Assembly: GCA_028282805.1 (NCBI GenBank)
Contig: JANQHD010000056.1
Coordinates: forward strand, 1 to 42,032
DNA from: Phycisphaeraceae bacterium
GTDB taxonomy: Bacteria > Planctomycetota > Phycisphaerae > Phycisphaerales > Zrk34
Reading direction: 5' to 3'
DNA: 42,032 nucleotides
Shown: positions 19,883 to 42,032 of the stretch, piece by piece
Position numbering within the stretch: the first letter of the stretch is position 1
Layout: every line of letters starts with the position of its first letter
Program-made: the position numbers and the translations under genes
The notes under the pieces: model-generated
The model's database searches: none
What the model was told of the DNA's origin: nothing
The model's input: the letters and a program-made list of their open reading frames with translations, nothing else

Positions 19883-20838
19883 ACATGACCCAACACCGGG
19901 GTTATTTGACGGGATTGCTGCTCACCGCGGCGCTCGCGGGCGTCGGGTGCAAGCGGTCGGAACCGGTTGCGCCCAAGCCGCCTGCGCCCAAACCGGCCGC
20001 GCCGCCGGTCGTGGTGGCACCGAGCGCTAAGCCGCAAGCGGCGGCACCCGAGGCGGACGCGTACGCGTGGGTCGAACGGTACCACCCGTCGCAAAGCATC
20101 GCCCTGCGCATCGCGCCCCCGGAAGGTTTCGCGCGGGTCGACGTCGAACCCGGCACGTTTGCGCACTGGTTGCGATACCTGCCGCTCAAGCCCGGCCGGC
20201 CCGACGTGCGCTTGTTCAACGGCGAGCCCAAGGCCAACCAGACCGCGCACCACGCGGTGATCGACATCGACGTCGGCGAGCGCGACCTGCAACAGTGCGC
20301 CGACGCGGTCATGCGGTTGCGCGCCGAATACCTGTTCACACACGGCCACGCCGACCGCATCGCGTTCAACTACACCAGCGGCGACCGCGCGGCTTACACC
20401 GAGTGGGCCGAGGGCATGCGGCCGAGCGTGTCGGGCAACCGCGTGACGTGGTCGCGCAGCGCCGGGGTCGATCGCTCGTACCGGGGTTTCCGTCGGTACC
20501 TGCGCAACGTGTTTATCTACGCGGGCACCGCGTCTTTGTCGAAAGAGTTGCCGAAGCTCGGCGACCCGGCGCGGCTGCGCGCCGGCGACGTGATCGTGCA
20601 GGGCGGCTACCCGGGGCACGCGGTCATCGTCGTCGACGCGGCGGTCGATGCGCGAACCGGCCGGCGGGTGTACCTGTTGGCGCAGAGCTACATGCCCGCG
20701 CAAGACATGCACGTGCTGGTCAACCCGAGCGATCCGGCGTTAAGCCCGTGGTACACGGCCGAGCCGGGCCGGCCGATCGTCACGCCCGAGTGGCGGTTCA
20801 ACGCTTCGCACCTGCGGCGTTTCCCGCCGCCTCGGTGA
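19879..20838 (+). CDS. DUF4846-type exported protein, probable lipoprotein
   Basis: 319 residues from GTG at 19879 (overlapping the CDGSH stop); an in-frame ATG at 19885 is the alternative. The signal sequence ends at Cys (LTAALAGVGC), though the lipobox is not ideal. A Pro/Ala/Lys-rich spacer (about 28-55) precedes the domain, which has 'FAHWLRYLPLKPGRPDVRLFNGEPKANQ', 'AVIDIDVGERDLQQCADAVMRLRAEYLF', and 'LRAGDVIVQGGYPGHAVIVVDAAV', matching DUF4846. The last motif resembles a papain-like GxxGHA/V element, so a hydrolase or transglutaminase-like role is possible but unproven. It overlaps the convergent glycosyltransferase gene by 41 bp. Confidence 0.85.
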   Translation: MNMTQHRGYLTGLLLTAALAGVGCKRSEPVAPKPPAPKPAAPPVVVAPSAKPQAAAPEADAYAWVERYHPSQSIALRIAPPEGFARVDVEPGTFAHWLRYLPLKPGRPDVRLFNGEPKANQTAHHAVIDIDVGERDLQQCADAVMRLRAEYLFTHGHADRIAFNYTSGDRAAYTEWAEGMRPSVSGNRVTWSRSAGVDRSYRGFRRYLRNVFIYAGTASLSKELPKLGDPARLRAGDVIVQGGYPGHAVIVVDAAVDARTGRRVYLLAQSYMPAQDMHVLVNPSDPALSPWYTAEPGRPIVTPEWRFNASHLRRFPPPR

Positions 20839-22042
20839 GCACGCGTTCGAGGTCGTCGACGTGGCGATCCATGCCGAGGCGTTGGTCGAGTTGCGCATCG
20901 TGGGCGGCCGCGGCGCAGCGCCGGCGTTCGCTTGGGTCGGCCAGGTCGATCATCGCCTGCGCGAGCTCGTCGATGCGCCGCGGCGAGCGGATGACCCGCC
21001 CGGCGGGTTGGCGGGCGTAGGTGATGGGGTTGTTCATCGGCGAGCTGAGCGGGCTGGGCAGGGCGTTGCCGTCGGCAGGGTCGGCGACCCACTGGCTGGC
21101 GCCGTTGTAGGCGGTGCTGATCGCGGGCACGCCGTGCAACAGCGACTCGATGACGACCTTGCTCGACGGGTCGTACCAGCTTGGCAGCACGGTCACGTCG
21201 CTGGCGGCGTAGAGCGTGTCGAGCTGCCGGGTGGGGCCGACCCACCGCACGTGGTCGCTCAGCCCGAGCTGCGCGGCGCGGTCGATGGTGCCTTGCGGCA
21301 GGCACCCGGCGACGACGAGCTTGGCACGCGGCTGCACCTGCACGACCGTGGGCAGCGCATCGATCAGCGAACCCAAACCCTTCAAGCCCGGGTTCATCGC
21401 CGCGAACAGGTACACGATGTCGTCGTCGTCGAGCTGCCAGGTGTTGCGCACCTTTTGGCGAAGCTCGGCGCGCTCGCCGGGGCCGAGGCGTTCGACCGCC
21501 GCGGCGTTGGGTATGAAGTCCAAACGCTTCGGCGGGATGGTGTAATGATGAAACAGCTGGTCGCCGACGTACCGGCTGATCGCCACGATGCGCTGCACAC
21601 GCGGGTGGTTGAGCGACCGGCGTTCGGTGTACAGCAGCGCCAGTTGTTTCGGGCTGAGCGCGATGCCGAGCTGCTTGAGCGCCCGGCGGGTTGCGCCGCG
21701 CCGCCGGGCGACGTTGCGCGCGAGCGTTTCGCGCACGGTGCCGCTGCGCGGTTGCAGCACGTGGGCGGGCACGGCGAGCGTGACCGACAGGCTGACGTCG
21801 TAGTCGTCGAGCTGTTTCTCCGCCCACCGCGCGAAGCGCAGCAGGCCGAGCGCCGACTTGGTGCGCAGCCCGTCGGAACTGACGATGCGCCCGCCCGGCA
21901 GGTCGACGGTGGTGGGGTGTTTGCTGGTCAGCACGGTCACGTCGTGGCCGCGTTCGATCAGCCGGCGCGCGATCTGGTCGGTCGAGCGCTCGTTGCCGCC
22001 CGCGGCCGGGTTGAACCGCTCGATGACCAGGGCGATCTTCAT
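20798..22042 (-). CDS. Glycosyltransferase, GT4 family (group 1)
   Basis: Encodes 414 residues; start at 22042 overlapping the heptosyltransferase stop as ATGA. GT4 features are 'IALVIERFNPAAGGNERSTDQIARRLIERGHDVTVLT', the N-terminal acceptor domain, then 'IVAISRYVGDQLFHHY', 'FAAMNPGLKGLGSLIDALP' and the donor-binding 'VLPSWYDPSSKVVIESLLHGVPAIS'. It resembles WaaG-like LPS core glucosyltransferases in layout. Transfers a sugar from a nucleotide donor to a lipid A core or similar acceptor on the cytoplasmic face. It is the last gene of a gmhB-heptosyltransferase-GT4 unit, which favours LPS core assembly. Its 3' end overlaps the DUF4846 gene. Confidence 0.92.
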   Translation of the reverse strand: MKIALVIERFNPAAGGNERSTDQIARRLIERGHDVTVLTSKHPTTVDLPGGRIVSSDGLRTKSALGLLRFARWAEKQLDDYDVSLSVTLAVPAHVLQPRSGTVRETLARNVARRRGATRRALKQLGIALSPKQLALLYTERRSLNHPRVQRIVAISRYVGDQLFHHYTIPPKRLDFIPNAAAVERLGPGERAELRQKVRNTWQLDDDDIVYLFAAMNPGLKGLGSLIDALPTVVQVQPRAKLVVAGCLPQGTIDRAAQLGLSDHVRWVGPTRQLDTLYAASDVTVLPSWYDPSSKVVIESLLHGVPAISTAYNGASQWVADPADGNALPSPLSSPMNNPITYARQPAGRVIRSPRRIDELAQAMIDLADPSERRRCAAAAHDAQLDQRLGMDRHVDDLERVLTEAAGNAAGAKR

Positions 22043-23064
22043 GCGTCGACCACCTTGGCGCGGCGTGAATCGAGCAGCTGCCCGGCGGCGGTGACGACGG
22101 CTTGCGTTTCGATGCCGGTCATCGGGTAATCGGGCGCGTCGGCCGAGCGGATGATCGTCTCGTTGGGCGCGTCGAGTTGCGTCCACGCGGGGTCGGTCGG
22201 CCCGAACAGGCTGATCGTCGGCGCGCCGACCGCCACGGCCACGTGCCGCGCGCCGGTGTCGTTGGTGATGACCAGGTCGCACCGCCGGGCGATCGCCTTG
22301 AGCAGGTGCAGGTCGCTGTCGTGGTCGAGCAGCTTGACGAGCCTGTGCGAGGTCAACGCCTGCACCGCGTCGAGCAGCGGGCGTTCGGCGGGCGAGCCGT
22401 TGAGCAGCACCACCGCGCCGCGCGATTCGATCAGGTGGTCGGCCAGCGCGGCGTAGCGTTCGGCGGGCCAGTTCTTCGCACCGCCCTTGGTCGCCGCGCC
22501 GGGGTTGAGCATGACCACGGGTCTGGCGCCGCCGCTGACTTGGTCGATGATGTGCTGCGCCCTTTCGTCGTCTTCGGGGCGTGTGAACAGCTGCATCGTG
22601 CGGTCGGTGGTGTGTGCGCCCAACGGCTTGAGCAGTTCGAGGTAGTAATCGATCGCGGGCGTGGGCAGGTATCGGCCGGCTTCGCGCGGCGGCAGCAGCT
22701 TGTCGGTCAGCAGCCAGCCGCGCCCGTCGCGCACGTAGCCGATGCGCCGCTTGATCTTTGCCAGGCGCACCGTTAGCGCACTGCGAAAGCTGTTGGTCAG
22801 CAGCAGGGCGACATCGTGTACGCCGGCGCGCAGGCGCTTGGCGGTGGCAAGCACGCCTTTGCCGGTGGTGGTTTCGATCGCGTCGAGCCAGGGCGTTTGT
22901 TCAATGATCGGCGCGGCGTACGCCTTGCACGCGGCCGTGAGGTGTACGCCGGGCAGCGCCGCGCGTAACGCGCGCAGCGTCGGCGTGGCCATCACGACAT
23001 CGCCCACCCAGTTGGGCATCACGATCAAAACGCGTTGGGGCTCGGGTGCGTTGGCCAAATCCAT
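22039..23064 (-). CDS. Heptosyltransferase, GT9 family (WaaF/WaaC-like)
   Basis: Adds heptose to the LPS inner core from ADP-heptose. About 341 residues; ATG at 23064 chosen over TTG at 23067. GT9 motifs: 'VLIVMPNWVGDVVMATPTLRALRAALPG' (N-terminal), 'VVMLNPGAATKGGAKNWPAERYAALA' and 'LVITNDTGARHVAVAVGAPTISLFGPTDP' (donor site), like WaaF. No strong Shine-Dalgarno is seen; a TGATACAAT extended -10 lies only 6 nt before the ATG and overlaps the gmhB stop, so an internal promoter giving a near-leaderless mRNA is possible. It is 13 bp downstream of gmhB, whose product feeds the same pathway. Confidence 0.94.
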   Translation of the reverse strand: MDLANAPEPQRVLIVMPNWVGDVVMATPTLRALRAALPGVHLTAACKAYAAPIIEQTPWLDAIETTTGKGVLATAKRLRAGVHDVALLLTNSFRSALTVRLAKIKRRIGYVRDGRGWLLTDKLLPPREAGRYLPTPAIDYYLELLKPLGAHTTDRTMQLFTRPEDDERAQHIIDQVSGGARPVVMLNPGAATKGGAKNWPAERYAALADHLIESRGAVVLLNGSPAERPLLDAVQALTSHRLVKLLDHDSDLHLLKAIARRCDLVITNDTGARHVAVAVGAPTISLFGPTDPAWTQLDAPNETIIRSADAPDYPMTGIETQAVVTAAGQLLDSRRAKVVDA

Positions 23065-23070
23065 CAACCG

Positions 23071-23079
23071 ATTGTATCA
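23071..23079 (-). promoter_or_regulatory. Extended -10-like TGATACAAT overlapping the gmhB stop
   Basis: The minus strand reads TGATACAAT six bases before the heptosyltransferase ATG. Its TGA is the gmhB stop codon. It matches the rarA pattern, but chance is possible and no -35 was found. Confidence 0.35.
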
Positions 23080-24273
23080 GCGTTGCCCGTGCAACAGCAG
23101 GCAGGTGATCACCACGAGCTGGAAGAACACCGCGCCCAATAGCCAGTTGCCTGTCGCGCCCACGCCGATGACGCCGATCATCGCACAGAACAACGCCAGC
23201 GGTTGGGCCAGCGCCATGCCGATCACGCGGAACATCGACCAGTCGGCGTGGTCGAGCTGGTTGCCCTTGAGCTGGCGCAGTATCTGTTGCAGCAGGCGGT
23301 CGGTCGGCGACGGTTGATCTTCGCTCGGCGCCTCGGCCTCACGCGGCTCGTCGGCCGGCTGCGCCGCGGCCGGCGGTTCGCTCGGCGCTACCGTTTTGGG
23401 CTTGCGCGCCCGCTTCGCGACGGCCGGCGGGGTCGGCGCCTGCGGCTTGGGGATGTTCACCTGCGTGACCGGCAGGGGCGTTTTGATCCCCGTGCTCTGG
23501 TTGAGTTCCGCCGCCTCGGCCTGCTCCTCGGTGACCGGTTGGATGCTCCACGGCTTGAACGGCCGGCTGGTGTTGTGCACGGTCGGCTGCGAGCTGCTGG
23601 TGGTGGTTTCGAGCTTCTGCACGGCGGGGTACGTCGGCCCGGCGTTGGGGTTGAGCGGCTCTTCCTTGACCGCTTGCGTCTTGACGACCACCGGCTCGGC
23701 GTCGGGGGCGGCCTCGACCTCCGGCTTGAGGTGTTGGGCGATGATCCGCGCCGCCTCGACGAGGGTTTCGGCCGTGTACTCCGGCTCGACCGACGACTCG
23801 CCGTCGTCTTCGCCGATCAATACCGTTCGCACGCCCGCCGCCTGGCCCGCCTCGACGTCGCGCGCCGCGTCGCCGACCATCCAGCACAGCGACAAATCGA
23901 GTTTCATGTCCTTCGCCGCCTGAAGCAGCATGCCCGGCTTGGGCTTGCGCCACGGGTGGTCCTGGTCGTACTTGTCGATCGGCGCGTCGGGCAGGTACGG
24001 GCAGTAGTAAAAACGGTCGATCGATGCGCCGTTGGCGTGTTGTTCGACGAGGTTGGCGAGTTTGGTGTGCACCGCTTCGACGTCGGCCTCGGTGAACATG
24101 CCGCGCGCCACGCCCGACTGGTTGGTGACCACGACGATCTTGTACCCCAGCCCGCGCAGCGACGCGATCGCGCTGGCCGCGCCCTTCATCAAACGCACGC
24201 CGTTCGGGTCACCGAGGTAGCCGTCTTCATCGATGAGCGTGTTGTCGCGGTCGAAAAAGATCGCGCGTTGCAT
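23077..24273 (-). CDS. HAD-IIIA phosphatase (GmhB-like) with disordered linker and two TM helices
   Basis: 398 residues, about twice the usual GmhB. Residues 1-175 form the HAD domain: 'FFDRDNTL' (Asp8, Asp10), 'VVVTNQSGVARG', 'RKPKPGML' and 'VGDAARDVEAG' (Asp135, Asp139). This domain removes the 7-phosphate of D-glycero-manno-heptose 1,7-bisphosphate in LPS heptose synthesis. Canonical GmhB has a zinc loop with several Cys/His; here only Cys91 is in the corresponding segment (CPYLPDAPIDKYDQDHPW), so zinc is probably absent. Residues 185-325 are Pro/Ala/Glu-rich and disordered. Two transmembrane helices follow (about 348-372 and 375-395). It precedes the heptosyltransferase, which supports the heptose role. 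AGGAG lies 9 nt before the ATG. Confidence 0.86.
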   Translation of the reverse strand: MQRAIFFDRDNTLIDEDGYLGDPNGVRLMKGAASAIASLRGLGYKIVVVTNQSGVARGMFTEADVEAVHTKLANLVEQHANGASIDRFYYCPYLPDAPIDKYDQDHPWRKPKPGMLLQAAKDMKLDLSLCWMVGDAARDVEAGQAAGVRTVLIGEDDGESSVEPEYTAETLVEAARIIAQHLKPEVEAAPDAEPVVVKTQAVKEEPLNPNAGPTYPAVQKLETTTSSSQPTVHNTSRPFKPWSIQPVTEEQAEAAELNQSTGIKTPLPVTQVNIPKPQAPTPPAVAKRARKPKTVAPSEPPAAAQPADEPREAEAPSEDQPSPTDRLLQQILRQLKGNQLDHADWSMFRVIGMALAQPLALFCAMIGVIGVGATGNWLLGAVFFQLVVITCLLLHGQR

Positions 24274-24804: not shown

Positions 24805-26604
24805 TTATTTCTTGCCCTTGCCCCGCCCTGCCTGCGCCTTGATCGCCTCGAGTTGCGCCTTGAGCGCCTCGCGGCGGTGGCCCAGCGTCTCGTCGGCTTG
24901 CTCGAGCCGATCGCGCCAAAGCTCGAGGTTCTCCACCGCCTGGCGCACCAGCTCTTCGCCCGCCTCGCGCTGCTCGGCGACCCGAGCGCGTGCATCGCCG
25001 ACAAACTCCGCCAGCTCCGCCTCGTGCGCTTCGAGTTGGTCGGCGTGCTCACCGAGCTTCTGCCCCAGCGCGTCGAGCTGCGCCTTGCGCTCGGCCAACT
25101 CCTCGGCCAGCGCGTCGAGCTCGGCCTGCTTGGCATCCAACTCACCCGAACGCTCGGCCGCCCGGGCTTCGGCCTGCTGCGATTCGGCTAAGCTCGCCTT
25201 CGCCTCGGCCAACGCCGCCTTGGCCTCGTCAGACTTCGCCGCCGCGTCGGCTTCGCGCTTCTCGATCTCGGCCAGCTGCGCCGCGATGGTCGCGCTCTGC
25301 TCGTCGAGCTGCTGTTGCTTGGCCGCCAGTTCCGCCGCCTGCGCGTTCAGCTCTTCGCTGCGCTGGTGCGAGGCGGCGATCTGTTTTTCCAGGTCCGACG
25401 CCAAATGCTCGAACTCGCGCTGGCGGTTGTCCAGCGACTCCGTGCGCTCATCGAGCTCCGGCCCGCGCCGCTCGATCTCCGCCTGCTGCTTGTCCAGGTC
25501 CGACTGCCGGCGGTCGACCTTCTGTTCGCGGTCTTCTAAGTCGGCCTGCCGGGCGTTCAGCTGCTCTTCGATCTCGTCGAGCGTGCCCTCGCGGTTGTCG
25601 AGGTTCGCCTCGCGACCGCGCAGGTCCGAAGCCCGGCGGTCGAGCTCCTCTTCCCGCTCACGCAACTGCTTGGCCTGTTCCGCCTTGTTCTTGCGCGACG
25701 CCGCGTCCGTCGCCGGCGGTTCATCGGGCACGTCCTTGCCCGCCAGCGCGCCGCCGAGTTGTTCGACGTAGCGCTTCTGCGTCGGTGTCAAATCCGTCGG
25801 CGCTTCGATCAACACGTTGACCAGCAGGTCGCCCGACTTCCCGTTCTCGTCACACAGCCCCTTGCCCGTGATGCGCAACGGTTCGCCGCCGCTCGTCCCG
25901 GCCGGCACGTCGATCATGATCGGCCCCGACAGCGTCAGTACCTCGACCGTGTCCCCCAGCACCGCTTGGTCAAAGCGCAGCTTTGCCTGCGCGATCAGGT
26001 CCAAGCCGTCTCGAAGCAACCGCCCGTGCGGTTCGATCACCAGCGTGAGGACCAGGTCGCCCGGCTTGCCCTTGCGGTCCCCGGCGGGGTGGCCCTTGCC
26101 CGGCACGCGCAGCTGCGCGCCGGCCTCCACGGCACGCGGCACGGTCACGTCGATCTTCTCTTCCTTGCCGTCCGCGTCGCGCAGGTGAAGCGACACCACG
26201 CCGCCCAACGCCGCGGTCTCGAACGGGATCTGAACGCTGTGGTGCAGGTCCTGCCCGTCGACTGGCCGGGTCCCGGTGCGCGACTTACGCCCGCGTTTGT
26301 GCTTGAACGCCCCGAACACCCGGTCGAGGATGTCCGCGTCGTCCATGCTCGCGTCGTGCAGGTCGCCGAAACCCGGTTCCGCCGGGCGTTTGCCGTTGGC
26401 CCCGTCGTTGTCGTACGCGCTGCGCCGCTCCGGGTCGGTCAACACCTCGTACGCTTCTTGCAGCTCGGCGAAACGGCCCGTCGCCTCTTCGTCGTCGTTG
26501 ACGTCGGGGTGGATCGCCTTGGCCAGCTTGCGGTACGCCTTCTTGATCTCGGTCGTGTTGGCGGTCCGGCTGACGCCCAGTATGTCGTAATAATCGCGGG
26601 GCAT
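24805..26604 (-). CDS. DnaJ/CbpA-type co-chaperone with a long coiled-coil tail
   Basis: 599 residues. The J domain (about 1-70) has HPD at 32-34 and 'YYDILGVSRTA'. Residues about 115-275 are the two C-terminal substrate-binding domains ('PFETAALGGVVSLHL', 'VPAGTSGGEPLRITGKGL'), without the Cys-rich zinc domain, so it is CbpA-like (type II). Residues about 305-590 are a very long heptad coiled coil rich in Glu, Gln, Arg and Ala, with words such as 'LDRRASDLRGREANLD'; the tail ends basic (GRGKGKK). It would stimulate Hsp70 (DnaK), not in this window. The tail probably dimerises it or anchors it to a partner. A TGATATGAT extended -10 is 37 nt upstream. Confidence 0.93.
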   Translation of the reverse strand: MPRDYYDILGVSRTANTTEIKKAYRKLAKAIHPDVNDDEEATGRFAELQEAYEVLTDPERRSAYDNDGANGKRPAEPGFGDLHDASMDDADILDRVFGAFKHKRGRKSRTGTRPVDGQDLHHSVQIPFETAALGGVVSLHLRDADGKEEKIDVTVPRAVEAGAQLRVPGKGHPAGDRKGKPGDLVLTLVIEPHGRLLRDGLDLIAQAKLRFDQAVLGDTVEVLTLSGPIMIDVPAGTSGGEPLRITGKGLCDENGKSGDLLVNVLIEAPTDLTPTQKRYVEQLGGALAGKDVPDEPPATDAASRKNKAEQAKQLREREEELDRRASDLRGREANLDNREGTLDEIEEQLNARQADLEDREQKVDRRQSDLDKQQAEIERRGPELDERTESLDNRQREFEHLASDLEKQIAASHQRSEELNAQAAELAAKQQQLDEQSATIAAQLAEIEKREADAAAKSDEAKAALAEAKASLAESQQAEARAAERSGELDAKQAELDALAEELAERKAQLDALGQKLGEHADQLEAHEAELAEFVGDARARVAEQREAGEELVRQAVENLELWRDRLEQADETLGHRREALKAQLEAIKAQAGRGKGKK

Positions 26605-37720: not shown

Positions 37721-38881
37721 ATGTACAGACGCCGTTTTTCGATTGTCATCGCTGTTTTAATCGCTTTGGTCGCATCCGATCGGGCCGCCGGCCAAGCCAC
37801 GACCCGGCCCTACCTCGTCGGCGGCGACCTGTCGGCGCTGACCCACATCGAGCAGCTCGGCGGCGCCTTCCGCGATGCCGATGGCCCGGCCGACCCGTTG
37901 GTCATCATGAAACAAGCCGGTTGGAACTGCGCGCGGCTGCGGCTGTTCGTCAACCCCACCAAGCGCGGCTTCGTCGTCAACGACCTGCCCTACACCCTCG
38001 CCCTGGCCAAGCGCTGCAAGGCGCAGGGCTACATGATCCTGCTCGACCTGCACTACTCCGACACCTGGGCCGACCCCGGTCACCAGACCAAGCCCAAGCA
38101 GTGGGAGAACCTCACCTTCGAACAACTCGAACGGCGTGTCGAACGCTACACCGCCCAGGTGCTCAGCGCGTTTAACCGCAACGGTGTGCGCCCCGACGTC
38201 GTGCAACTCGGCAACGAGATCTCAAACGGCATGCTCTGGCCCGAGGGCAAGCTCTTTACGGGTGAGCAGGCGCAGTGGGAACAGCTCGCCCGGTTGCTCA
38301 AGGCCGGCGTGCGCGGCGTCGAGCGCGTGGCCAAGCCCGGCAAGCCGCCGCTGATCATGATCCACCTCGCCAACGGCGGTTCGACGCAGCGCACCGCCGC
38401 CTTCTTCGACCAGATGCAAGCCCACGGCGTGCGCTACGACATGATCGGCCTCAGCTACTACCCTTGGTGGCACGGCACGCTCGCGCAACTCAAAGACAAC
38501 CTCAACCACACCGCCAAGCGCTTCGGCAAGCCGATCGTCGTCGTCGAGACCGCCTACACCTGGCAGCCGCACGAGTTCAACCCCGAAAAACACAAAAACC
38601 TCGAAGCCACCATGACCTGGCCGCAGACGCCCGAAGGCCAGGCGCAGTTCACGCGCGACGTGGCCGAGGCCGTGCGGCAAACCCCCGACGGCCTGGGCGC
38701 GGGCGTGGTATGGTGGCACCCCGAGTCGATCCCCGTCGAGGGCCGCGGCGTGTGGATGCGCGGCCGCGCAGCGCTGTTCGACGACAAGGGCCGCGCGCTG
38801 CCCGCGCTGTATGAGTTGAATCACGGGCTTAAAAACTCAACGCCTGCGCCGCGCCAACCCAAGTCCGCCGAGCGCCAGTAG
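37721..38881 (+). CDS. Secreted GH53 endo-beta-1,4-galactanase
   Basis: Cleaves the beta-1,4-galactan side chains of arabinogalactan type I. 386 residues. Signal peptide MYRRRFSIVIAVLIALVASDRAAG, so secreted or periplasmic. The GH53 barrel has 'VGGDLSALTHIEQLGGAFRD', 'WNCARLRLFVNPT', acid/base Glu166 in LGNEISNG and nucleophile Glu275 in VVVETAYTW, with 'SYYPWWHGTLAQLKDNL' between. There is no carbohydrate-binding module. An AAGGGG element lies about 17 nt upstream of the ATG. Its 3' end overlaps the convergent sulfatase gene by 45 bp. The cytoplasmic GH35 could finish the oligosaccharides. Confidence 0.95.
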   Translation: MYRRRFSIVIAVLIALVASDRAAGQATTRPYLVGGDLSALTHIEQLGGAFRDADGPADPLVIMKQAGWNCARLRLFVNPTKRGFVVNDLPYTLALAKRCKAQGYMILLDLHYSDTWADPGHQTKPKQWENLTFEQLERRVERYTAQVLSAFNRNGVRPDVVQLGNEISNGMLWPEGKLFTGEQAQWEQLARLLKAGVRGVERVAKPGKPPLIMIHLANGGSTQRTAAFFDQMQAHGVRYDMIGLSYYPWWHGTLAQLKDNLNHTAKRFGKPIVVVETAYTWQPHEFNPEKHKNLEATMTWPQTPEGQAQFTRDVAEAVRQTPDGLGAGVVWWHPESIPVEGRGVWMRGRAALFDDKGRALPALYELNHGLKNSTPAPRQPKSAERQ

Positions 38882-41395
38882 CGCAACGCTCGCCGGTTCG
38901 GGCGCCACCGGTTGCGCCGCGGCGACCGACCCGCCGAAGTTCGCACCCAGCGCATCAAGGTCCGCCAGGCCGACCACCCCGTCGTAGTCGAAGTCGCCGT
39001 CCTGCCACGTGCCCGCGGTGTTGAAGCTCGCGCCGAGCGCATCGAGGTCGTTGAGCGAAACCACCCCGTCGCCGTTCGCATCGCCCGCCAGCGCCGCCAG
39101 CAACCGCACGCGGTCGACCACGGTGTCGCCGTTGCCGTCTTCGTACAGCACGGCGACCGCGTGCCCCGCGCCCAACTGCCAGCCGGTGATCGCCGTCTGG
39201 TCGAAGCGCCCCGCGATCCCCTCTTCGCCCCCGGCGGTGAGCACGACGAACGCGTCCCCCGGCGTAAAGGCAAAGCCGTCGAGCGTGGCGATCGCCAGCG
39301 CCCCGCCGAGTTGTGCATCGCCCGCGACCTGCAACCGGTCAAACCGATCCGACCCGGCGCCCGCAAACTCGAGCGCGAGCGCGGCGGTGTCGACCTGAAC
39401 ATAATCATCGACCAGCGTGAGCACGCCGGTCGCTTCGTCGGCGTCCGGCTCGCCCGAACTCGGCGAGAAGACGCCGCCGCCGGTCGGCACGTCGTCGGGC
39501 CGGCCCGGCGCGACCAGGCCGAGGTTGTACACGTCGCCGATTACCGTGCCCTCGCCGGTCAGCGCACCGCCTTCGAGCACGTCGATCCAGCGGTTGCTCG
39601 CGAGCGTGCCTTCCGACAGCAGCACACGCCCGCCTTGCGAGATGCGCACCTCGTTGCGGCCGGTCGCCGTGACGCCCGCGACGACTTCGAGCGTGACCTG
39701 GCTCAGGTCGCCGCGCACCTCCAGGCCCAGCGTGGTCAGGTCCGTGTTGACCTCGACACGCTGGTCGAGCGCGAGCGTGCTGTTGATCACCGCCGACCAG
39801 TGCGCCCTCGGGGCCGTTCTCTGGTCCCACTTGTTTGCGCTGTTCGTGGCGTCGCCGTTGTAGCCGGTCCAGTTCGCGTATTCGACGGTGTAGCTGTCGG
39901 GCTGTTCGACGCCCTCGGCCAGGGCGATCGCCGTCAACTCCGCCGCGAGCTGCGCGTGCTCCGGCGCAAGCAGGTTGAGTTCGTCGTTCTCGTTCGGGTC
40001 GGTCGGCAGGTGATACAAACGCATCGTGCCGTTCGCGTACTTGATCAGCTTGTAGTCGTCCTTGACGATCGCCCAGCGCGGGTCCAGGCCGTCGGGGTCG
40101 GGCCCGTCGTACTGGTGGTGCTCGAAGATCAAATAATCGCGCTTACGGTCGAAGCCTTGGCCGGTGAGCATCGGCGCCAGTGAGACGCCGTCCATCCCCA
40201 CCGGCCCGCGCACGCCCGCCAGTTCCAGCGCCGTCGGCATGAAGTCCGCCAGGTCGGTGTAGCGGTCCGAGACGCCCTCGCCGATCACGCCTTGCCAGTA
40301 CATCACCAGCGGTACGTTGATCCCGCCGTCCCACAGGTCGCGCTTGCCGCCGCGCTTCTCGCCGTTGGCGTCGAAGAACCCGATCGGCGAGCCGTCTTCC
40401 GCCGTCGCGCCGTTGTCGGAGGTGAACACGATCAGCGTCTCACCGAGCACGCTGTCGGCCTTGTCGCCGTCGCCGTCGGGGTCGTCGAGCTTGGCCACGA
40501 TCGCCCCGACCGCCGCGTCGGCTTTGGTGATCATCGCCGCGTAGTTCTTCTGTTTCGTCGACCAAGGCAGGCCCGCGTAGATCCCCTGGCCGCCCGGGAA
40601 GTTGTCGATGCTGTCGATGTCGAAGTGCGGGATCGTCGAGTTGAACGACATATAAAACGGCTCGGCGTCGCCCGCGTGCCGCTCGATGAACCCCAGCGCC
40701 TTGTCTTCCACCAGATCGTGCGTGTAGTTAACCGTGTCGTCGTCGAAGTTGTTACCGGTCTTCTCCAGCCACAGGCCCAAATCGGTCGCCGGCTGATACC
40801 AATACTTCTCGCCCACCTCGTCGACGCCGTCGAAATCCTCGTCCGCCGGTTCTTCCGTGGTCCACAGCGAATCGACCTGGTACGAATGCGCCCGGCCGTG
40901 GTGCAGGTAGCCGTAAAACTCGTCGTACCCCTGAAGGTTCGGCAGCGTGTCGACCGTTTGGATCGAAGGGTAGGGCCGCAGCGAGCCGCTGCCGTTGGAA
41001 CCGCCGAACCCCCACTTGCCGTACATGCCCGTCGTGTAGTTCGCGGTCTTGATCACCTCGGCCAGCAGCACGTCCTGCGCACGGAACCCCGCGCCGAGGT
41101 TGCCGTTGCGGTCGAGCGAGGTGTGGCCGTTGTGAAACCCGCTGTACAGCATCGCGCGCGACGGGCCGCACACCGGCGCCGCGTACGCGTTGTTGAACTT
41201 CATCCCCCCGGCCGCCAGCGCATCGATGTTCGGCGTCTGGATCAGCGGTTGGCCCTGGTAACCCACGCTGCCCCAGCCGAGGTCGTCGAGAAAGATGTGC
41301 ACGATGTTCGGCCCGCCGGCGCTCGCGCCCCTTGACGTTACCGTCACTAAGCCAACCCCAACTAAAACGGCAACGATAAATGGCGCGCGGATCAT
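38837..41395 (-). CDS. Secreted sulfatase with dockerin-type and PEP-CTERM domains
   Basis: 852 residues; ATG at 41395 with AGGGG 7 nt upstream. Signal peptide about 1-26. The sulfatase domain (about 28-490) starts 'PNIVHIFLDDLGWGSVGYQG' and carries the formylglycine motif CGPSR (Cys76), so it needs an anaerobic or FGE maturase. A beta-rich segment with 'QVTLEVVAGVTATGRNEVRISQGGRVL' style repeats follows. Then a dockerin type-I-like pair ('GDANGDGVVSLNDLDALG' at about 771, 'GDFDYDGVVGLADLDALG'), and the PEP-CTERM tail APEPASVALLALGGLGLARRRR in which PEP and the Arg cluster are the exosortase signals. It probably removes sulfate from algal or similar polysaccharide at the cell surface. Confidence 0.94.
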   Translation of the reverse strand: MIRAPFIVAVLVGVGLVTVTSRGASAGGPNIVHIFLDDLGWGSVGYQGQPLIQTPNIDALAAGGMKFNNAYAAPVCGPSRAMLYSGFHNGHTSLDRNGNLGAGFRAQDVLLAEVIKTANYTTGMYGKWGFGGSNGSGSLRPYPSIQTVDTLPNLQGYDEFYGYLHHGRAHSYQVDSLWTTEEPADEDFDGVDEVGEKYWYQPATDLGLWLEKTGNNFDDDTVNYTHDLVEDKALGFIERHAGDAEPFYMSFNSTIPHFDIDSIDNFPGGQGIYAGLPWSTKQKNYAAMITKADAAVGAIVAKLDDPDGDGDKADSVLGETLIVFTSDNGATAEDGSPIGFFDANGEKRGGKRDLWDGGINVPLVMYWQGVIGEGVSDRYTDLADFMPTALELAGVRGPVGMDGVSLAPMLTGQGFDRKRDYLIFEHHQYDGPDPDGLDPRWAIVKDDYKLIKYANGTMRLYHLPTDPNENDELNLLAPEHAQLAAELTAIALAEGVEQPDSYTVEYANWTGYNGDATNSANKWDQRTAPRAHWSAVINSTLALDQRVEVNTDLTTLGLEVRGDLSQVTLEVVAGVTATGRNEVRISQGGRVLLSEGTLASNRWIDVLEGGALTGEGTVIGDVYNLGLVAPGRPDDVPTGGGVFSPSSGEPDADEATGVLTLVDDYVQVDTAALALEFAGAGSDRFDRLQVAGDAQLGGALAIATLDGFAFTPGDAFVVLTAGGEEGIAGRFDQTAITGWQLGAGHAVAVLYEDGNGDTVVDRVRLLAALAGDANGDGVVSLNDLDALGASFNTAGTWQDGDFDYDGVVGLADLDALGANFGGSVAAAQPVAPEPASVALLALGGLGLARRRR

Positions 41396-41473: not shown

Positions 41474-42032
41474 TCAACGCGCACGCCGAAATAATGTCGC
41501 GCCGCCGGCCATCAACAGCGCGACGCTCGCCGGCTCGGGCACCGCGGGCGTTCCGGGGGCGGTGGGTATCGCCTGGTTGAAGGCGGCGCCCAGCGCGTTG
41601 AGGTCCACCAAACTCACCACCCCGTCGTAGTTGAAGTCGCCGTCCTGCCACGTGCCCGCTTGGCCGAAGCCCGCGCCCAGCGTGTTCAGGTCCGCCAAGC
41701 TCACCACCCCGTCGCCGTTGGCGTCGCCCTTGATCGTCGCGAACAGGCGCACACGGTCGACGATGCCGTCGGGCGCCACGTCGGTGTCTTCGTAGAGCAC
41801 CGCGATCGCGTTGTCGGTCGTCGTGTCCGGCAGTTCCCACCCGCTGATCGCCGTCTGGTTGAGCACACCCGTGATGCCGCCGGCGCCGCCCGCGGTGAGC
41901 ACGACGAACTCATCGCCGAGCGCAACCGTAAATCCGCCGTCGGTGGCGATCGACAAGCCGCCGGCCAGTTCGACGTCGCCGGTGACGACGAGGTTGTCGT
42001 ACTGCGGGTCGAGCGGGTCGGCGTTGTCCGTG
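41474..42032 (-). CDS. Partial PEP-CTERM/dockerin protein (5' end beyond window)
   Basis: Only the last 185 or so residues are visible; the frame stays open to the window edge, so the gene continues to the right. It ends with 'GDANGDGVVSLADLNTLGAGF', 'GDFNYDGVVSLVDLNALGAAF' and VPEPASVALLMAGGATLFRRAR, the same module order as the sulfatase next to it. The part before, with 'DEFVVLTAGGAGGITG' and 'AVLYEDTDVAPDGIVDRVRLFATIKG', also matches the sulfatase's pre-dockerin segment closely. The gene ends 78 bp upstream of the sulfatase start on the same strand. The catalytic domain, if any, is not in view. Confidence 0.9.
   Translation of the reverse strand, partial: TDNADPLDPQYDNLVVTGDVELAGGLSIATDGGFTVALGDEFVVLTAGGAGGITGVLNQTAISGWELPDTTTDNAIAVLYEDTDVAPDGIVDRVRLFATIKGDANGDGVVSLADLNTLGAGFGQAGTWQDGDFNYDGVVSLVDLNALGAAFNQAIPTAPGTPAVPEPASVALLMAGGATLFRRAR

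Follow-up and report, generated by a model that had tools for sequence, protein, structure and literature searches.

The product of the gene at 23077-24273 of the window (the whole 42,032-nt stretch of Phycisphaeraceae DNA analysed here) is a GmhB-type HAD-IIIA domain followed by a disordered linker of about 140 residues, an amphipathic helix and a predicted two-helix membrane hairpin. Judging from the sequences of its relatives, the fusion is real and is kept across families and orders. We consider it likely that the gene is this bacterium's GmhB (D-glycero-D-manno-heptose 1,7-bisphosphate 7-phosphatase), anchored by its hairpin at the cytoplasmic face, near the lipid acceptor and the transferase. 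The architecture, its conservation, the gene neighbourhood and the homology of the tail module are established directly. What is new is the predicted anchor on a known enzyme; the anchor module was not found described in our family scans or literature searches.

Domain layout and the membrane tail

An uninterrupted reading frame with an ATG start encodes 398 residues on the minus strand (Table 1). In the AlphaFold model, built from a 35-row alignment of the window protein and its relatives, pLDDT is about 83-97 in residues 1-180 and mostly about 45-65 in residues 186-320, and three C-terminal helices follow. The original prediction had proposed that about 210 residues, with a disordered linker and two transmembrane helices, are added to the GmhB-like domain. 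The extension measures about 213-218 residues, the low pLDDT bears out the disorder, and the model helices together with hydropathy give the two predicted membrane segments.

Table 1. Coordinates of the gene product's parts and of the adjoining genes in the window.
Feature	Residues	Coordinates	Strand	Basis
GmhB-like HAD-IIIA phosphatase domain	1-180	23734..24273	-	NCBIfam, PDB and Foldseek matches
Motifs of the HAD domain	motif I D8-R-D10-N-T12; motif II T50; K110 of RKP; motif IV GD135AARD139			
Disordered Ala/Pro/Glu-rich linker	181-322	23308..23733	-	pLDDT about 45-65 over 186-320; linker make-up in 106 fused proteins
Short linker motif RPFKPW	237-242	23548..23565	-	[FY][KR]PW in 25/106 linkers
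Amphipathic helix preceding the hairpin	323-344	23242..23307	-	model helix; L..IL.ELR pattern in alignments A1, A2
Predicted membrane helix 1	347-369	23167..23235	-	model helix; hydropathy
Predicted membrane helix 2, with Gln385	376-397	23083..23148	-	model helix; Q385 nearly invariant in alignment A3
GT9 heptosyltransferase (heptosyltransferase II-like)		22039..23067	-	PF01075 E 9.2e-38; TIGR02195 148.4 bits, cut-off 134.6
GT4 glycosyltransferase, start picked by inspection		20798..22042	-	PF00534 and PF13439

Elsewhere in the window, the proteins at 38837-41395 and 41474-41956 (minus strand) have, by inspection, a PEP-CTERM-like end (VPEPASVALL..RRR), one of them being sulfatase-like. Positions 1-94, at the extreme contig end, are a perfect tandem array of TTGACCAG in 11.8 copies.

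The tails were compared in 106 distinct fused proteins, four of them from loci beyond the 191 GmhB-like loci that were read (111 from the searched genomes and 80 named ones, the best 80 of 586 matches). Distinct proteins are counted as well as loci because some named loci are records of searched genomes. In each of the 106 tails two hydrophobic windows exceed 1.4 (best pair of 17-residue windows per tail), and the loop between them has a median of 12 residues (6 to 34), which suggests that the enzyme probably faces the cytosol, on the cytoplasmic side of the inner membrane. The charges fit weakly with both ends of the hairpin in the cytosol: the mean number of K/R is 0.84 for the loop and 1.65 beyond helix 2, where 103 of the 106 tails have K or R, and the 20 residues that precede helix 1 carry a net charge of +0.87. 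The positive-inside signal is weak, since only 28 of the 106 loops are free of K/R.

The linker varies between 0 and 384 residues in these proteins (median about 100) and is abundant in Ala, Pro and Glu. The [FY][KR]PW motif is far above its frequency in shuffled linkers, where the mean is 0.025 and the maximum 1. Its stricter form P[FY][KR]PW occurs in 19 of the 106 linkers, namely 5 of 6 in group f1 and 14 of 34 in f6, and is absent in f3 (13), f5 (6), the named loci (43) and four others; thus it is a feature of only a part of the group. The hairpin matches no Pfam or NCBIfam family above cut-off, and Pfam gives nothing above the gathering score outside the HAD domain of the one fused protein scanned. 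No second copy of the tail was found in the own genome, where the best match (E 0.72) lies inside a cation-efflux-like ORF.

Two successive tail-profile searches within the phylum, over 246 genomes and over 391, the second with a profile that included the matches of the first, reveal fused GmhBs in further families of the class, as well as small CxxC...CxxC proteins with a hairpin in other Planctomycetota families. Over the 391 genomes the matches are clear down to E 6.7e-5, with one at 7.8e-4 and the remainder from 3e-3. Thirteen Zn-ribbon-like relatives align with four Cys and two Gln invariant (13/13). Comparison of the GmhB-tail profile (A1) with eleven Zn-ribbon tails from families outside A1 gives an hhalign probability of 94.4 (E 8.5e-8, score 40.9), against 12.9 for the reversed control and at most 26.6 for 100 locally shuffled ones. 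By this profile evidence, the GmhB tail and the hairpin of the Zn-ribbon proteins are homologous. Two of the Zn-ribbon proteins, scanned against Pfam and NCBIfam, gave nothing above cut-off. Members of the Zn-ribbon/hairpin set are L141, L143, L144, L169-L174, L176, L177, L180, L181, L183, L186, L188-L191, L193 and L199-L201; they often adjoin a sigma-54-type regulator.

The surroundings of these small proteins differ between groups. In f39, hldE-type adenylyltransferase and gmhA-like genes adjoin two of the three loci (L143 and L144 only), and neither neighbour was found by the gene calls at L141. The neighbours in f50 are a sigma-54-type regulator and a peroxiredoxin, with no heptose enzyme near, and those in f95/f96 are regulators and metG (names by sequence pattern in both cases). 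Rather than tethering the enzyme for substrate transfer, the hairpin might serve mainly for oligomerisation or regulation, for example as the part that a membrane protease such as FtsH takes hold of, or as a membrane sensor. We regard this as a possibility of some weight, though a rather unlikely one. Helix-helix contacts would fit the Gln that lies inside or beside helix 1 in 90 of the 106 tails, in helix 2 in 97, and invariantly in the Zn-ribbon relatives, and the f50 proteins carry the same module away from heptose enzymes. However, within the window's class it is GmhB that carries the module, and inside heptose loci; moreover, with a loop of median 12 residues the module has no sensor part outside the membrane.

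More doubtful is a wider reading, in which a dedicated two-helix module would serve Planctomycetota as the assembly site of LPS-core heptose synthesis, oligomerising via the intramembrane Gln and gathering heptose enzymes and heptosyltransferases at the inner membrane. Its carriers would be the GmhB fusion in Phycisphaerales/Sedimentisphaerales-type genomes and the Zn-ribbon-like protein beside hldE/gmhA-type genes in f39. Since the f50 and f95/f96 contexts show the module outside heptose loci too, they count against this reading.

Identity and neighbourhood of the phosphatase

Elsewhere GmhB is a small soluble enzyme that takes part in making a sugar of the outer bacterial surface; in LPS pathways it hydrolyses the 7-phosphate with a preference for the beta-anomer. 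The window protein matches the NCBIfam models PRK08942 (E 2.3e-39) and TIGR00213 (E 1.8e-34), with TIGR01662 above cut-off. Its best phmmer matches in the PDB are GmhB (E. coli GmhB 2gmw, E 1.1e-28). Foldseek with the AlphaFold model places E. coli GmhB at ranks 1-4 (best 3l8e and 2gmw, TM-score by target 0.86-0.90), followed by M. loti mll2559 and B. bronchiseptica GmhB (rank 6), with HisB-N behind. A Lys motif is characteristic of HAD phosphatases. The catalytic residues are intact: D8, T12, K110 and D139 are invariant and D10 and D135 are conserved in at least 90% of 35 aligned proteins. The window protein has DxDx(T/V), S/T, K and (G/S)D...D, three of these four motifs being worded as in PMC8204981. 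The GmhB-like assignment in the original prediction agrees with the nearest structures and with the leading models, yet the protein stays under the curated cut-offs (PRK08942 134.8 vs 178; TIGR00213 119 vs 149.6).

In the own genome this is the single GmhB-like gene. HldE is above its cut-off (184.3 bits vs 181.5), a GmhA homologue is below its own (176.9 vs 209.45), and no HldD epimerase above cut-off was found, the best match having 116.5 vs 274.6. There are two further GT9 genes, one of which is separated by two genes from an lpxK-hldE pair (lpxK named by sequence pattern). HldE, the GmhA homologue, the adjoining GT9 gene and the operons of relatives together provide the context of ADP-heptose synthesis.

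In the window the gmhB stop codon is 9 nt from the GT9 gene, which overlaps the GT4 gene by 4 nt; that the next gene encodes a heptosyltransferase had been predicted correctly. GT9 lies within 1.5 kb downstream of 68 of the 106 distinct fused genes (at least 900 downstream bases are available for 95), and within 3 kb upstream of the 106 we find hldE for 25, lpxK for 27 and gmhA for 12. At least one of these neighbours, be it GT9 behind the gene or hldE, gmhA or lpxK in front of it, is present for 81 genes, and for 25 no heptose gene was found nearby. GT9 also follows 27 of 35 standalone orthologues and 19 of 20 forms with a small soluble domain, as compared to 0 of 11 loci in a separate paralogue clade and 1 of 10 outgroup loci. 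Hence, this gene position goes together with heptose transfer, whether the tail is present or not. The gene order is lpxK-hldE-gmhA-gmhB fusion-GT9 in L196 and lpxK-hldE-fusion-GT9 in L195; L194 has lpxK, hldE and the fused gmhB with no GT9, and hldE-fusion-GT9 occurs in L138, L139, L140 and L142. Neighbours in L194-L196 were named by sequence pattern and a phmmer scan, the lpxK query itself being named by pattern.

Several further arrangements were seen at these loci. At L064:6627-8126 (G049) the GmhB domain is joined directly to a GT9 heptosyltransferase in a 555-aa frame, a natural fusion of the neighbouring genes. Another domain, small and soluble (about 80 residues, ..AHAIAERTGV...AAELRR.T..W...G.LW) and with no Pfam match above the gathering score, stands between gmhB and GT9, as a separate gene in L100, L103, L104, L097 and L111 and fused to GmhB in L088, L124, L125 and L129. 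We considered the small gene behind standalone gmhB as a split-off tail and rejected this: it is the other, soluble domain, and its profile also matches around tail-bearing f3 and f5 genes. L065, L066, L067, L068 and L070 form a second clade of standalone GmhB-like paralogues, with a gmhA-like gene near in several genomes and no GT9 downstream. The DnaJ at 24805-26604 of the window (minus strand) consists of a J-domain, a C-terminal domain and about 330 residues resembling a coiled coil; DnaJ is also upstream of gmhB in L031, L033 and L034.

The enzyme might act on a different sugar phosphate, one linked to the membrane, with GmhB merely its nearest relative. The low scores against both GmhB models would agree with this, and so would the zinc loop, which reads CPHH...CDC in E. 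coli GmhB and CPYL...HPW in the window protein. The C.H...C.C residues of the E. coli enzyme, which we take to be Zn ligands, are retained as a pattern in 0 of the 110 fused proteins among the 191 loci (80 of these being the best 80 of 586 matches) and in 5 of 57 standalone ones. Anchoring would also suit a lipid-linked substrate. Nevertheless, we find this reading improbable: the gene is the sole GmhB-like one in a genome with HldE and a GmhA homologue, its relatives lie in operons with hldE, gmhA and GT9, the fused relative L196 exceeds the TIGR00213 cut-off (152.1 vs 149.6), and the standalone and fused forms occupy one slot before GT9. We consider it very improbable that the protein is a histidinol-phosphatase of the HisB N-terminal type and not a heptose enzyme. 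The histidinol-phosphatase domain model TIGR01656 is above its cut-off (117.3 vs 84.15) and HisB-N comes behind the GmhBs among the structural matches, but hisB_Nterm scores only 59.5 bits, against 134.8 and 119 for the GmhB models, and the surroundings are those of heptose and LPS synthesis and not of histidine synthesis.

Distribution of the fusion among relatives

The window protein finds a match in 109 of the 121 genomes searched with it. The tail profile finds the fused architecture in 110 of the 191 loci, 80 of which are the best 80 of 586 matches: 6/10 in f1, 0/30 in f2, 13/27 in f3, 0/1 in f4, 6/6 in f5, 34/37 in f6 and 51/80 among the named loci (those best 80 of 586). Matches of G085 and G115 were left out of the 191, as was L069 (G004), whose contig holds the tail end only. 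In G021 and G039 the paralogue locus was read, and tail-bearing genes were seen in both, outside the 191 count. Within the window's family, 6 of 9 searched genomes have the in-frame fusion, and in a seventh, G004, it is broken by the contig end. The fusion is thus conserved in related genomes, as the original prediction had asked to be checked, and the contrary case that it named, separate genes or a frameshift in relatives, did not occur. Behind the 19 standalone loci inspected, the tail was not found as a separate neighbouring gene and is simply absent. A frame error, mis-assembly or chance gene joining, for which the missing tail in f2 and two near relatives is the sole support, is ruled out for practical purposes by the in-frame order that the fused loci share across many assemblies and by the match of the window tail to the profile (E 5.2e-24).

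On a quick LG+G4 tree of the N-terminal 172 residues (179 rows) the presence of the tail changes 7 times, against a mean of 58.2 in shuffles, 0 of 500 of which are as low; only 3 of the changes are forced by starred branches, and the tree does not separate gain from loss. The predicted anchor is group-wide and mostly inherited vertically. G001, from the window's genus (85% complete), gave no match, and G003, from its family (97% complete), has only the paralogue, the fused gene being absent. Since the gene of family f2 is tail-less and these two genomes are without the fused gene, the anchor is dispensable in evolution. In a small control, the tail profile matched in 0 of 6 genomes reached via the outgroup loci (Thermodesulfobacteriota, Deltaproteobacteria, Actinomycetota, Gemmata, Zixibacteriota and one further bacterium). 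G078 has two fused GmhBs, L031 (G078:C166) and L089 (G078:C251); the copy on a 3.8-kb contig, with 77% identity to the window's domain, is possibly on a stray contig from another species.

Proposed role and comparison with known systems

ADP-heptose synthesis is generally viewed as taking place in solution and supplying transferases that are bound to the membrane. In the following account the catalytic activity, the location in the membrane, the binding of partners, any channelling and a benefit from closeness are inferred. The C-terminal two-helix hairpin would hold GmhB on the cytoplasmic face of the inner membrane, with the HAD domain in the cytosol and the flexible linker giving it reach to partners. 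The conserved amphipathic helix and the Gln within the membrane helices probably let the hairpin associate with itself or with a partner in the membrane. The likely purpose would be that this step of ADP-heptose synthesis takes place close to the lipid A/Kdo acceptor in the membrane and to the heptosyltransferase that the next gene encodes.

The original prediction went further, suggesting that the fusion could tether heptose synthesis to the inner membrane where this transferase works. The conserved fusion, its linkage to GT9 and heptose genes, the two predicted helices and the likely cytoplasmic side support that idea. However, "tethers heptose synthesis" overreaches, because the GmhB product must pass the adenylyltransferase HldE, which has no such tail in the own genome; only the one step would be anchored. 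The tail-less HldE as the next step, together with the life of f2 without an anchor, also argues against a simple channel.

A group-wide anchor on one step would mean that location matters for the heptose pathway in planctomycetes, a group in which the making of the envelope has received little attention. Our literature search found no paper combining Phycisphaer* and heptos*, and a membrane-bound GmhB was not found among the matches listed. The analysis also brings to light a recurring two-helix module that is testable on its own.

With GmhB (TIGR00213 / PRK08942; E. coli 2gmw, 3l8e) the window protein shares the HAD-IIIA fold, the catalytic motifs and the NQ.GVARG-like and RKP.PGM stretches, and its relatives' genes adjoin a heptosyltransferase or hldE/gmhA. 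Unlike GmhB, with model lengths of 176-182, it has 398 residues with a linker and two predicted membrane helices, it is without the C.H...C.C zinc pattern, and it scores below the curated cut-offs. The GmhB models and structures used for comparison have 176-218 residues, none with such a tail. Helicobacter GmhB is described as a monomer with a 22.1 kDa subunit (PMC8204981), and the Vibrio and E. coli enzymes as functional when purified as His-tagged proteins with GmhA and HldE (PMC10948575). The HisB N-terminal histidinol-phosphatase (2fpr, 2fps) has the HAD-IIIA subclass and fold in common with the window protein; however, its score is lower and its gene surroundings differ. The small Zn-ribbon proteins (f39, f50, f95, f96 and others) share the two-helix module, the helix before it and the conserved Gln, but have 120-197 residues with an N-terminal CxxC...CxxC domain and no phosphatase. 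Finally, the inner-membrane LPS assembly proteins LapB/LapD of E. coli are alike in idea only, that of a membrane hub: LapB, described as such a hub and as co-purifying with WaaC, a heptosyltransferase (PMC9456370), is a precedent for the gathering of heptose transfer at the membrane, but it is not a heptose-synthesis enzyme.
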